Shown here: positions 38,906 through 61,929 of the stretch, piece after piece
Numbering within the stretch: position 1 is the first letter of the stretch
Layout of the letters: the number at the start of each line of letters is the position of its first letter
NCBI GenBank assembly: GCA_030432565.1
Contig: JAUIGV010000019.1
Span: forward strand, 1-64,000
DNA: 64,000 bases
Origin: Verrucomicrobiia bacterium
GTDB lineage: Bacteria; Verrucomicrobiota; Verrucomicrobiia; Verrucomicrobiales; Akkermansiaceae
Reading direction: 5' to 3'
Made by a program: the position numbers and the translations under genes
Notes under the pieces: generated by a model
The model's input: only the letters and a program-made list of their open reading frames with translations
What the model was told of the DNA's origin: nothing
Database searches by the model: none

Positions 38906-38949
38906 AGGTGAGGTGTGCCCAACGCATCTCAATTCCCAAGTTCCCCGTC

Positions 38950-40836
38950 ATGGCAAAAAAGAAAACCACCGCTAAGAAGGCTGCCAAAAAAGCACCTGCT
39001 AAGAAAGCTCCCGCCAAGAAGGCCGCAAAGAAAGCTCCTGCTAAAAAAGCTGCCAAGAAGGCCCCTGCCAAAAAAGCTGCCAAAAAAGCAGCTAAAAAAG
39101 CTCTCGTGAAAAAGGCACCGGCTAAGAAAGCAGCAAAGAAAGCTTCCCCCAAGAAAACGGCAAAAAAACCTGCTGCCAAAAAGGAAACCACCAAGCCTGC
39201 CGACGCCGCTCCCGCGCCCGAGTCCAAGTCTGGCAAGAAGCCAAAAAATCGCATCGACACTCCCGAAATCCGGGAAAAGATCCGGGAACTTATCAAGCTC
39301 GCCAAAGAGCAGGAATATCTCACCTACGATGATATTCACGAGATCCTCCCCAACAACCTCATCGAAGAAGAAGATATCAAGGCTATTCTTGACCGGCTGC
39401 GCCAGATGGAGTTCGAGATCATCGACGCCTCCGAGGTCGACCGCTTCAAGGATAAGAAAAAGGGAGATCTTGATTCCGAGGAAGATACCAAGGATCAAAA
39501 GCTCGACATCCTCGACGACCCCGTCCGGATGTATCTCAAGCAAATGGGCCAGGTTCCCCTTCTCACCCGCGAGCAGGAAGTTGAAATCTCCAAGCGTATC
39601 GAAGATGCTGAAATCGAGGTTCAGAAATACCTCCACCTCTTCGGCTTTACCGCAAGCGGATACCTCGCCCTCGCCGACAAACTGATGCGCGGCAAGGAAC
39701 GCTTCGACCGCGTTATCCTCGACAAAAAGATCGAAAGCCGTGAGCGCTACATGAAGGCCCTCCCAAAACTTTGCGATCAGGTTCGCACAACTCACGAGGA
39801 GACGACCGCGATCATCAAGAAACTTTCGGCCAAGGCACCCCGCGGTAAAAAGAAGCTCGAGACCACTCTCTCGAAGAATCTTCAAACCATCGCCCGCCTT
39901 TACAGCCGGTTCTACTTCAAGCAAAAGGTCATCGAAGACTTCTGCGACGTCGTCGCCGAGTATCAGGAAAAGATCTGGAAGTATTCCCGCAAGAAAGGCA
40001 TCGAGGCCGAGACTGCAATCAAGGAGCTTTCCCTGGAATCCTGGCACAACGTCGAGCAATTCGAGGACACAAACAAGGATCTCCGTCTTTGGATGCGCAA
40101 GGCCCTCAAAGCCAAGACTGAAATGGTCGAGGCCAACCTTCGCCTCGTCATTTCCATCGCGAAGAAATACACCAACCGCGGACTTTCATTCCTGGACCTC
40201 ATTCAGGAAGGAAATATGGGCCTCATGAAAGCGGTCGAGAAATTCGAGTATCGTCGCGGCTACAAATTCTCCACCTACGCGACTTGGTGGATCCGTCAGG
40301 CCATCACCCGCTCCATCGCCGATCAGGCCCGGACCATTCGTATCCCGGTTCACATGATCGAGACCATCAACAAGCTCATGCGCGTGCAGAAACAACTCGT
40401 GCAGGAATACGGCCGTGAACCGACCCCCGACGAGATCGCCGAGGAGATCCACCTGCCCGTCGAGCGTGTTCGTGCCGTGCTCAAGATGGCCCAGCAGCCG
40501 ATCTCGCTCCAAGCGCCTGTTGGCGATTCCGACGACACCTCCTTCGGTGACTTCATCGAGGACAAATCAGCCGAAAACCCGATGGAGGAAGCTGGCTTTG
40601 CCATGCTCAAGGACAAGATCATCGAAGTCCTCGACACTCTCACCGAGCGGGAGCGCGAAGTTCTTGAACAGCGCTTTGGGCTCAAGGATGGCTACTCCCG
40701 GACTCTCGAAGAAGTAGGCCGCCAATTCCAGGTCACCCGTGAGCGCATTCGTCAGATCGAAGCCAAGGCACTTCGGAAGATGCGGCACCCGACCCGAATC
40801 CGGAAGCTGGAAGGCTTCATCGAATTGCCCATGTAA
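38950..40836 (+). CDS. rpoD: Primary sigma factor RpoD with histone-H1-like N-terminal extension
   Basis: A 628-residue sigma-70 protein. Residues 1-100 are an Ala/Lys/Pro extension built on AAKKAPAKK units, starting [14 protein letters not shown], then a Ser/Pro linker. Region 1.1 (about 103-180), 1.2 ([20 protein letters not shown]), region 2 ([34 protein letters not shown]), region 3 and region 4 ([32 protein letters not shown]) are intact. The extension resembles chlamydial histone-like Hc2 and eukaryotic H1 tails and should bind DNA or RNA non-specifically; effect on promoter use is unknown. Start at 38950; the earlier in-frame ATG 38908 lies near the -10. Confidence 0.95.
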
Positions 40837-59551: not shown

Positions 59552-59977
59552 ATGAAAGCAACACTTCTATTGCTCGTTCCGATTTCACTTCTCGTCTCCT
59601 GCACCCAGAATCAAGGTCAGGCCGCCCCGCCCGTCGCACCCGCGGCGAACATGGGGAATGAATACGGTGTCCCGGCTGCCGGAGCATACGACCCGGTCAA
59701 CCCACCCTACCAGCCGGTTGGTCCCATTAACCCTCCCGCAGCCCCGGTTCCTGCAGCTGACCCGTATGGTACGCCTCCCCCGGTTGCGGTCACCCCTTCC
59801 ACGCCAGCGCCTGCGGCTGCTGATTTGAACGGAAATGTTTACACGATTAAGAAGGGAGACTCCCTTTGGGGAATCGCGCGCAAATATGGAACCTCCGTCA
59901 GCGCCATCAAAGAAGCCAACGGAATGACCAGCGACACCATCATTGATGGACGGACCCTGATTATTCCCGGACGATAG
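59552..59977 (+). CDS. LysM-domain lipoprotein
   Basis: A 141-residue lipoprotein with lipobox LLVSC (Cys17), a Pro/Ala/Gln-rich linker (20-92) and one C-terminal LysM domain (about 95-140; YTIKKGDSLWGIARKYGT). LysM binds peptidoglycan N-acetylglucosamine, so the protein links the outer or inner membrane to the wall. No catalytic domain is present. Divergent from uppP across about 100 bp. A strong terminator follows at 60008. Confidence 0.9.
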   Translation: MKATLLLLVPISLLVSCTQNQGQAAPPVAPAANMGNEYGVPAAGAYDPVNPPYQPVGPINPPAAPVPAADPYGTPPPVAVTPSTPAPAAADLNGNVYTIKKGDSLWGIARKYGTSVSAIKEANGMTSDTIIDGRTLIIPGR

Positions 59978-60048: not shown

Positions 60049-61029
60049 ATGAAACTTATCCTTATCACCCTTCTTTCCCTCCTCCTTCCGGCTTTCTCCC
60101 AGAAAATGCCGGACGACAAAGAACAATTACTCGAGGCACTAATGAACGCCCCCGATCTGGCCTCCCTGGACCAAGCAATCGAAAAGGGCAAGAAAGCCGG
60201 ACTGCCCGAACAAATGTTTCTTGAAGCACGCTTCGTCTTTCTGGTGAACCAAGACAATCGTGCCGCACTCGCTGCATTGTCACCACAACTGGCGGCGCAT
60301 CTTCCAAAGTTCTCCCCCGACAACACCATGCTGTTTGCGGTCGAGGAAGACTTCGCGAGCATCGTGGAATACACCAGGGCACTTGCGGCACTTGAGAAAA
60401 ACGATACCGCTCTTTTCAAAAAGCACATCATGGAAGCATTTTGGCTCAGCCCGTCTCATGCCGCCCAGTTTGCTCCCTTGATTAACGAGCTGCGAATGGA
60501 GGAGGCCATGAAGAAAATCACACTCGATCTGGACCGCAAGTTCCCTGATCAAAAATCAGAAGGAAAAGAAATGTCCCTAAGATCCATTGCCGGAGAGTCA
60601 GCAGCCGTCCTCATCCACTTTTGGAGCCCCTGGGTGCAACAATCCATGGCAGCCATGGAGGAAATCGCAACCGTTTCAAACACCCTCATCAAAAACAAGA
60701 TCCCCGTAGCTTCGATTCTTTTGAGCAGCACCAATGAAGCCAGGAAGGATGCCGACAACTTCCTCGGAACCGATGGAGCGAAGAATCCCGGCCACTGGCT
60801 CATTGATCATGAAAAATCCTCTTTGGGTTCCTTGATGCGTGTCTCCTCATTCCCTACCGTGGTCCTGGCATCGCGAGAAGGAAAGATCCTCTTCAACGGC
60901 GACCCCGCCGATGGCCGTCTTTGGAAGATCCTGGCAGGACTTAATCCAAAAATCACACCACCTACGATAGATCCCGTACTCCCGGAAACCGGCTCAAACA
61001 CCCCTCCATCCGGTGAAAAAGGCAAATAA
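60049..61029 (+). CDS. Exported thioredoxin-like (TlpA/ResA-type) protein without the CxxC
   Basis: A 326-residue protein with a signal peptide (1-17). Residues about 20-165 are helical, tetratricopeptide-like. From about 180 it has a thioredoxin-like fold: SLRSIAGESAAVLIHFWSPW, then cis-Pro region VSSFPTVVLASREGKILF. The redox site, normally WCxPC after the FW, is WVQQS, so both Cys are missing and thiol-disulfide exchange is unlikely. It may be a chaperone-like or binding protein. It lies between the LysM terminator and the BlaI-type gene. Confidence 0.7.
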   Translation: MKLILITLLSLLLPAFSQKMPDDKEQLLEALMNAPDLASLDQAIEKGKKAGLPEQMFLEARFVFLVNQDNRAALAALSPQLAAHLPKFSPDNTMLFAVEEDFASIVEYTRALAALEKNDTALFKKHIMEAFWLSPSHAAQFAPLINELRMEEAMKKITLDLDRKFPDQKSEGKEMSLRSIAGESAAVLIHFWSPWVQQSMAAMEEIATVSNTLIKNKIPVASILLSSTNEARKDADNFLGTDGAKNPGHWLIDHEKSSLGSLMRVSSFPTVVLASREGKILFNGDPADGRLWKILAGLNPKITPPTIDPVLPETGSNTPPSGEKGK

Positions 61030-61056: not shown

Positions 61057-61070
61057 CAAGTTTAAACTTG
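61057..61070. promoter_or_regulatory. 14-bp perfect palindrome upstream of the BlaI-type gene
   Basis: CAAGTTTAAACTTG is a perfect dyad 53-66 bp before the GTG start of the BlaI-type repressor. Such regulators often repress themselves by binding dyads of this length, so this is a candidate operator; it does not contain the TACA/TGTA core of known BlaI boxes. Confidence 0.4.
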
Positions 61071-61122: not shown

Positions 61123-61929
61123 GTGCCACAATACGACGAACCATCTCCACAAGAGCTCCACGCCCTCGCCATTCTCTGGAACGAGGGTCCAAGTACAGTC
61201 GGCTTCGTACATGAAATGATGAACGAGGACGCCGGTGATCGGACCTACACGACCACACTAGCCGTGATGCGTAATCTCGAGAAAAAGAATCTCGCCGCCC
61301 GCAACACCCAGGGCCGGGCGCACGTCTACGAAGCAAAGGTGGATCGCGAGATCATTCTCAAGCCACGCTTGCAGGACCTCGTTCATAACAGTTTCGGAGG
61401 AAGCCTTGGACAGGCGATCCTCTCCCTAATCTCAGTTGGTGTCATGACGCCCGACGAGAAAACCGCGGTAACCCGCGTAATCAAACAGCACAAAGCCATG
61501 GCTGCGAAAAAGAAGACCACAAAAAAGAAGGCCGCTAAAAAGGCCGCTAAAAAGCCCGTGGCTGCCAAGAAAAAGGTAGCCAAGAAGAAAGTCGCCAAAA
61601 AAGCGGCTACGAAAAAAGTCGCCAAAAAGGCGGTTAAGAAGGTAGCTAAGAAAAAAGTCGCCAAAAAGGCAGCCCAGAAAAAGGTCGCCAAAAAAGCCGC
61701 TAAAAAGAAGGTTGCCAAGAAAAAGGTAGCCAAGAAAGCCGCCAAGAAAAAAGTCGCCAAAAAGGCTGCCAAGAAGGTCGCTAAAAAAGCGGCCAAGAAA
61801 AAGGTAGCCAAAAAAGCGGCCAAGAAGGTGGCTAAGAAAGCCGCCAAGAAAAAAGTCGCCAAAAAAGCGGCCAAGAAAAAGGTAGCCAAAAAGGCTGCTA
61901 AAAAGAAAACCGCCAAAAAACGCAAGTAA
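61123..61929 (+). CDS. BlaI/MecI-type repressor fused to a histone-H1-like Lys/Ala tail
   Basis: A 268-residue two-part protein. Residues 1-123 are a full-length BlaI/MecI/CopY winged-helix repressor (PSPQELHALAILWNEGPST, YTTTLAVMRNLEKKNLAAR, HVYEAKVDRE). Residues 124-268 are almost only Lys, Ala and Val in KKVAKKAAKK units, ending TAKKRK, resembling chlamydial Hc2 and eukaryotic H1 tails. The tail should bind DNA strongly and non-specifically. An internal ATG at 61498 (MAAKKKTTKKK) could produce the tail alone. No BlaR1-type sensor is near. The GTG start at 61123 has no clear ribosome site. A terminator follows. Confidence 0.9.
   Translation: MPQYDEPSPQELHALAILWNEGPSTVGFVHEMMNEDAGDRTYTTTLAVMRNLEKKNLAARNTQGRAHVYEAKVDREIILKPRLQDLVHNSFGGSLGQAILSLISVGVMTPDEKTAVTRVIKQHKAMAAKKKTTKKKAAKKAAKKPVAAKKKVAKKKVAKKAATKKVAKKAVKKVAKKKVAKKAAQKKVAKKAAKKKVAKKKVAKKAAKKKVAKKAAKKVAKKAAKKKVAKKAAKKVAKKAAKKKVAKKAAKKKVAKKAAKKKTAKKRK

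Follow-up and report, generated by a model that had tools for sequence, protein, structure and literature searches.

Positions 61123-61929 of the window, by which we mean the whole 64,000-nucleotide stretch of DNA that was analysed, encode a BlaI-type repressor that runs on in frame into a lysine-rich tail resembling histone H1. The locus raises the question of whether this tail is only an appendage of the repressor, or whether it is also made as a protein in its own right. Work on bacteria usually treats chromatin proteins and sequence-specific repressors as two distinct classes. If the two-product reading proposed below is true, a conserved gene makes both in cultured, harmless genera, and one could test directly whether a single gene and a single mRNA can set both targeted and bulk packing of DNA. 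The locus also bears on annotation, in that choosing the longest frame can conceal a separate protein.

A BlaI/MecI family repressor with a histone H1-like tail

Read on the forward strand, the frame passes from the BlaI part into the tail with no intervening stop codon.

61123-61929, + strand: whole BlaI-H1 fusion, a single open frame of 268 residues with a GTG start and a TAA stop
61123-61491, + strand: BlaI/MecI-type winged helix with C-terminal helices (residues 1-123), assigned from Pfam, AlphaFold2, Foldseek and profile matches

Both profile and fold place the fusion protein in the BlaI/MecI family. Residues 8-122 match Penicillinase_R (PF03965) in a Pfam scan with an E-value of 9.8e-19; the score of 68.2 bits exceeds the cut-off of 22.6. 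Modelled with AlphaFold2 from an alignment of 17 rows, the BlaI part has a mean pLDDT of 88.7 and consists of a winged helix and then three helices, the last of which ends at residue 122. MecI (1okr) is the closest solved structure in Foldseek (E 9.8e-7), and MecI and BlaI chains fill the first six rows (E 9.8e-7 to 2.2e-5), a comparison of fold only. Profile matches of the BlaI part are also MecI/BlaI chains, with the top score going to an uncharacterised mycobacterial relative. The CopY model TIGR02698 reaches 29.4 bits against the fusion protein, below its cut-off of 121.95, and the Cys-X-Cys metal motif of CopY is absent from the protein, which is free of cysteine altogether. The PF03965 match and the fold match to MecI 1okr bear out the identification of a BlaI-type repressor made in the sequence-only reading.

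The tail extends from approximately residue 124 to residue 268 (145 residues), and is composed almost exclusively of Lys, Ala, Val and Thr. The earlier description of a repressor of about 123 residues that continues in frame into a Lys/Ala/Val tail agrees with the single open frame and with the last helix ending at residue 122. The likeness to chlamydial Hc2, which had also been claimed, holds for composition and variable length and does not extend to a profile match: no histone-type Pfam family is found at E 1e-3, with PF03965 as the sole match, in a search whose filters may suppress such biased sequence.

Lysine- and alanine-rich stretches were also seen in other proteins. In the window, the housekeeping sigma factor RpoD (38908-40836, + strand, named from its sequence) has an H1-like K/A stretch as its N-terminus, and a sigma-like protein at locus L060, from genus g3 of the same family, has a longer N-terminal stretch of K, P and A. 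A separate small protein of two same-genus genomes (G018 and G002, loci L049 and L056) is H1-like in its N-terminal half (MAAKKKS...), while its C-terminal half is conserved and has SDWLQAEKALSK or MSDWLQAEKALSK at its end.

The fusion is conserved among relatives

Fifty-eight relatives were searched, and 41 of them gave matches. Among the same-family loci L004-L031 (n=28), 25 continue in phase into a K-rich tail, and the other three (L007, L010 and L031) are cut by contig ends. A K-rich tail is likewise present in 78 of 80 named loci, with L064 and L067 cut at the junction by contig ends; these 80 are the best of 133 loci and come from uncultured Akkermansiaceae and Verrucomicrobiales, Luteolibacter, Haloferula and Roseibacillus. 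Cultured species represented in this search include Luteolibacter pohnpeiensis, Haloferula rosea, Haloferula luteola and Roseibacillus persicicus. The 28-locus and 80-locus sets share many organisms. A frameshift or stop codon between the two parts, which the sequence-only reading had named as the observation that would speak against it, occurs in neither set. An assembly artefact is ruled out along with them, since the same in-phase fusion is found in many genomes. The BlaI repressor running on into an H1-like tail is real and conserved.

The distribution of the fusion was followed in samples of relatives that are non-exhaustive. Within the genus of the window, two of 27 genomes (G018 and G024) give weak matches only, and both assemblies fall short of completeness (78 and 85%). 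Across the class, a match better than 1e-45 was obtained in 19 of 285 sampled genomes, all of them from the window's own family and with frames of 170-305 residues; the next best match is 9.3e-31, with a frame of 158 residues. None of the 20 genomes of genus g3 listed in the class-wide sample matches at 1e-8. Fused forms also occur among order-level relatives, in families f2, f3 and f6. In a tree of the BlaI part the tails of the fused rows span 26-178 residues, and the fused rows are set to one side by a branch that has support 0. One fused gene from family f2 (L225, genome G410) clusters tightly with genus g173, which belongs to family f1, by transfer or through a misplaced contig. No description of a BlaI-H1 fusion was found among the listed titles of open-licence literature, one of the searches being unspecific and showing 8 of 10,746 titles, in line with the earlier remark that no named family has this architecture.

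A conserved start codon where the tail begins

An ATG codon in the frame of the fusion lies where the tail begins, and would open a nested gene.

61498-61929, + strand: proposed nested gene for a histone H1-like K/A/V protein of 143 residues, starting with an ATG in phase with the fusion

The ATG is present in 78 of the 80 named loci, the other two being those cut by contig ends. In a second set of 79 distinct rows from genome searches, for which loci were picked in part for long frames, 67 have the junction Met, seven have a tail without it, three are cut and two are tailless. Five of the seven Met-less rows belong to genus g10 (L156, L160, L239, L240 and L241) and have the shortest tails (26-37 residues), the others being L162 (118 residues) and L247 (72 residues). 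Where two of the g10 rows were viewed as DNA, the Met position is TTG (L156) or CTG (L160). The neighbour of L160 on the opposite strand, which by eye resembles pyruvate phosphate dikinase, likewise begins with a short run of K and A.

Around this codon the sequence is strongly conserved. Most family members open the tail with HK(A/T)-M-A-A-K-K, and the tail varies beyond this point. The DNA at the junction, cacaaa(a/g)cc ATG GCT GCA AA, is nearly invariant: the codon following the ATG is GCT in 72 of the 73 rows with Ala, and the remaining six rows have Pro. In families f3 and f6 (seven rows) the linker before the Met is different and M-A-x-K-K still follows; Shine-Dalgarno-like letters precede the Met in three of these seven. 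A Shine-Dalgarno tetramer precedes the nested ATG in none of 79 rows. This carries less weight against a start site because such a tetramer is also found at none of the seven stand-alone genes described below, and at 11 of 80 presumed BlaI starts, which were picked by a crude rule.

Stand-alone H1-like genes occupy the same place in sister genera

Two syntenic genes lie upstream of the fusion.

60049-61029, + strand: TrxL, a thioredoxin-like syntenic upstream gene (Thioredoxin_8, E 5.4e-05, 23.9 bits, below the cut-off of 27)
59552-59977, + strand: syntenic gene farther upstream with a LysM-like stretch at its end, named by eye

By tblastn, TrxL is present in 68 of the 80 named loci, and the gene at 59552-59977 has matches in 116 loci, overlapping copies included. 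The 30 best TrxL loci were taken from 82 genomes with a match; in these loci TrxL is followed by the fused BlaI-H1 gene in 19, by a stand-alone K-rich gene in seven and by neither in four. The seven genomes with a stand-alone gene come from three sister genera of the same family, have it in the same syntenic place and have no BlaI in the stretch. The encoded proteins begin with MAAKK or MATKK (five of the seven with MAAKKK). Seven further loci, from family f4, have TrxL with neither the fused nor the stand-alone gene in the fetched stretch.

BlaI-protein matches in five of the seven stand-alone genomes are weak only (1.9e-23 or weaker), and the other two (G444 and G450) are not among the matches listed. 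In the TrxL tree six of the seven fall in one group (support 83), in a tree whose deep part joins two long branches. Extra stand-alone copies were sought with a hand-written Lys/Ala query, which is insensitive; three of 12 genomes matched, and two of the four matches are the fused gene itself. In three g10 genomes (two of the Met-less ones, and G035, in which the Met is kept), TrxL is either at a great distance from the fused gene or on a different contig.

Selection on the junction DNA and alternative explanations

Synonymous variation was analysed in 79 rows aligned on the ATG. These rows were selected for the junction Met, and the frequency of the Met given above comes from the other sets (80 loci and 79 rows).

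61450-61506, + strand: constrained region of putative translation initiation, codons -16 to +2 around the internal ATG, from synonymous observed/expected ratios and mRNA openness

The synonymous observed/expected ratio is 0.37 over codons -16 to +2 (column median 0.29). Farther 5' it is 0.81 for codons -85 to -65 and 0.98 for codons -64 to -41, and then falls to 0.65 and 0.59 within codons -40 to -17; 3' of the start it is 0.56 for codons +3 to +7 and 0.88 from codon +8. Columns -16 to +2 differ from columns -85 to -17 (median 0.88) with p = 2.9e-6, a statistic that, like those on folding, ignores the kinship of the aligned rows. Columns before approximately codon -85 were omitted, as they lie behind a loop of variable length and are possibly out of register. 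The minimum 18-codon window (0.33) is at the junction and starts at codon -15, compared with a minimum of 0.77 in the control gene TrxL (64 named loci). The constraint reaches back to approximately codon -40, beyond the needs of a start site alone.

The mRNA at the ATG is predicted to be less folded than synonymous shuffles, with a mean z of +1.84 at codon 0 (se 0.13; 78 of 79 rows) and +1.87 at codon +1 (79 rows). Some 90 bases 5' of the ATG, folding is stronger than in the shuffles (z -1.83 at codon -29). In a subset of every second locus (38 rows, one of them possibly misregistered) the corresponding z values are +2.04 (codon +1) and -2.10 (codon -29). Taken together, these patterns indicate that selection acts on the junction DNA itself. 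Ribosomal slippage at A-rich heptamers was considered and dropped, as the base completing the heptamer varies.

The first alternative is that the fusion alone is made, its tail strengthening or spreading repression by the BlaI part as in the anchor model of the sequence-only reading, and that the junction Met is a relic of an old gene fusion. The frame is continuous in the tailed relatives, seven of 74 rows kept the tail after losing the Met, and the BlaI protein sequence is well conserved, all of which would suit such a protein. However, a relic is not expected to retain its ATG, the GCT codon next to it, a synonymous minimum and an open mRNA, and we regard this explanation as unlikely. The fusion may in itself function as the sequence-specific anchor for a condenser that the sequence-only reading proposed.

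The more folded upstream part of the mRNA is predicted to form two hairpins, and a small stem was seen by eye nearer to the start.

61397-61422, + strand: predicted RNA hairpin 5' of the internal start, from alignment folding, pair counts and z -1.83 at codon -29
61430-61459, + strand: second predicted RNA hairpin, with one pair covarying at synonymous third positions
61464-61477, + strand: small stem CGCGG-TAAC-CCGCG before the A-rich start region, seen by eye in alignment rows and shifted in register in some

Both hairpins are predicted in two alignments, one of 22 rows and one of 31 of the 57 loci L087-L143. In the second hairpin, the pair at alignment columns 69-78 is C-G in 41 rows, U-A in 22, U-G in eight, A-U in three, G-C in one and unpaired in four (79 rows). 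Scored by double change it comes out top among 1504 pairs, with background pairs close behind. This is moderate evidence that hairpins are conserved upstream of the internal start.

The same stretch bears on a second alternative, in which a free H1-like protein would be translated from its own mRNA, made from a promoter within the 3' end of the BlaI part. Constraint back to approximately codon -40, some 120 bases before the ATG, leaves room enough for a promoter; against this, no -35/-10 pair was seen by eye in the consensus, and RNA hairpins are the better description of the upstream part. We therefore consider such a promoter improbable, while noting that it and internal initiation are not exclusive and can coexist. 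The constraint could also reflect a signal in the RNA for elongation, with hairpins and particular codons ahead of the lysine-rich stretch aiding translation of the tail, and with no start site. The two conserved hairpins with some covariation, and the A-rich runs within K-rich tails, would fit, but a signal of this kind predicts neither a conserved ATG nor the matching first residue of the stand-alone counterparts, which makes it highly improbable. Release of a free tail by proteolysis of the fusion is scarcely credible: BlaI is regulated by proteases according to the accessible portion of one paper (PMC7253601), but proteolysis leaves the constraint on the junction DNA unexplained, and a Pfam scan of the two flanking genes alone returned Thioredoxin_8 (below cut-off) and Sulfatase, with no BlaR1-type or other protease match.

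Candidate operators upstream of the gene

One further feature lies between TrxL and the GTG start.

61057-61070, no strand: 14-bp palindrome CAAGTTTAAACTTG upstream of the gene, a weak candidate regulatory site recognised in the sequence only

Less perfect forms of CAAGTTTAAACTTG were seen by eye in some same-genus loci. The promoter was surveyed in those 56 of the named loci L087-L143 that have enough upstream DNA, which represent the larger part of the family. The region is conserved, with CTTGAC in 54 of the 56 and an exact AACTACTAGYT in 19. A CTAC-N2..12-GTAG dyad occurs within 300 bases upstream in 26 of the 56 loci, compared with 1.2 in crude shuffles of two-base blocks; it is found at none of 55 loci in a mostly coding control region, and at none of 22 loci in the window's own genus group.

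Ten fused genomes, chosen from genera g7 and g27, were scanned for AACTACTAGYTT. It occurs once per genome in seven, always directly 5' of the fused gene, and is absent in three; a reversed control pattern occurs zero to four times per genome. Neither AACTACTAGYTT nor the dyad is found within 350 bases of the seven stand-alone starts. TACA/TGTA operators are reported for BlaI and MecI in the available part of a published account (PMC7253601). The BlaI domain would bind the CTAC...GTAG dyad and the AACTACTAG element of its own promoter, and the gene is probably autorepressed in the sister genera with recognisable operators.

Proposed two-product mechanism

The conserved start codon, the local synonymous constraint, the open mRNA and the stand-alone syntenic genes together suggest that the tail is probably made on its own as well. 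We therefore part from the sequence-only reading on one point: it had treated the tail as an appendage only, and the in-phase fusion stands, whereas the conserved ATG, the constraint and the stand-alone counterparts point to a protein of its own.

We propose, and consider rather probable, that one gene gives two products, a BlaI-H1 repressor and a free H1-like protein made by internal initiation. Translation from the GTG at 61123 would yield the BlaI-type repressor with its long H1-like tail. As a dimer, this protein would recognise a specific operator through its BlaI part, and its tail would contribute non-specific DNA binding or condensation. Starting instead from the ATG at 61498, ribosomes would make the free H1-like part, a small nucleoid protein of linker-histone type that corresponds to the product of the gene standing alone at this locus in sister genera. 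Where operators are recognisable, again in sister genera, the repressor would control its own promoter, and hence the supply of both products. We infer use of the internal ATG by ribosomes, DNA binding by both products, autorepression and condensation from these comparisons. The full picture, for and against which we find the case evenly balanced, would be a linker-histone-like gene nested in phase in an autoregulated repressor gene and started without a Shine-Dalgarno sequence behind hairpins, with local repression and global nucleoid packing under one control.

Comparison with known systems

The repressor part shares with the BlaI/MecI/CopY family (PF03965) the winged helix, the C-terminal helices and a full-length fold match to MecI and BlaI. 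In repressors of this family the C-terminal helices dimerise; the BlaI/MecI branch has a BlaR1/MecR1 sensor protease encoded next door, and the copper repressor CopY has a Cys-X-Cys metal motif. The protein described here differs in its 145-residue H1-like tail and in its lack of a Cys-X-Cys motif, and neither of the two flanking genes gives a BlaR1-type match.

The tail looks like those of the Hc2, BpH1 and AlgP kind, with membership by profile unsupported. Chlamydial Hc2 and Bordetella BpH1, as far as the consulted section of the source describes them (PMC2848022), have similar Lys/Ala-rich repeats of variable length and number, whereas the tail here is fused in phase to a repressor and has no histone-type Pfam match. 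AlgP and PhaF of Pseudomonas have a comparable layout, in which a disordered DNA-binding tail rich in Lys and Ala comes after an N-terminal domain, the tail being so described for AlgP in the portion of the article at hand (PMC9239181). The N-terminal domain of AlgP is described there as putatively alpha-helical, in contrast to the sequence-specific repressor found here. Production of a full-length and a shorter protein from an in-frame internal start has reported parallels in the ClpB isoforms (PMC6168691) and the Rep proteins of plasmid pIGRK (PMC6854812). In contrast to these cases, the short product proposed here would be a different kind of protein from the repressor that precedes it, with stand-alone counterparts in sister genera.
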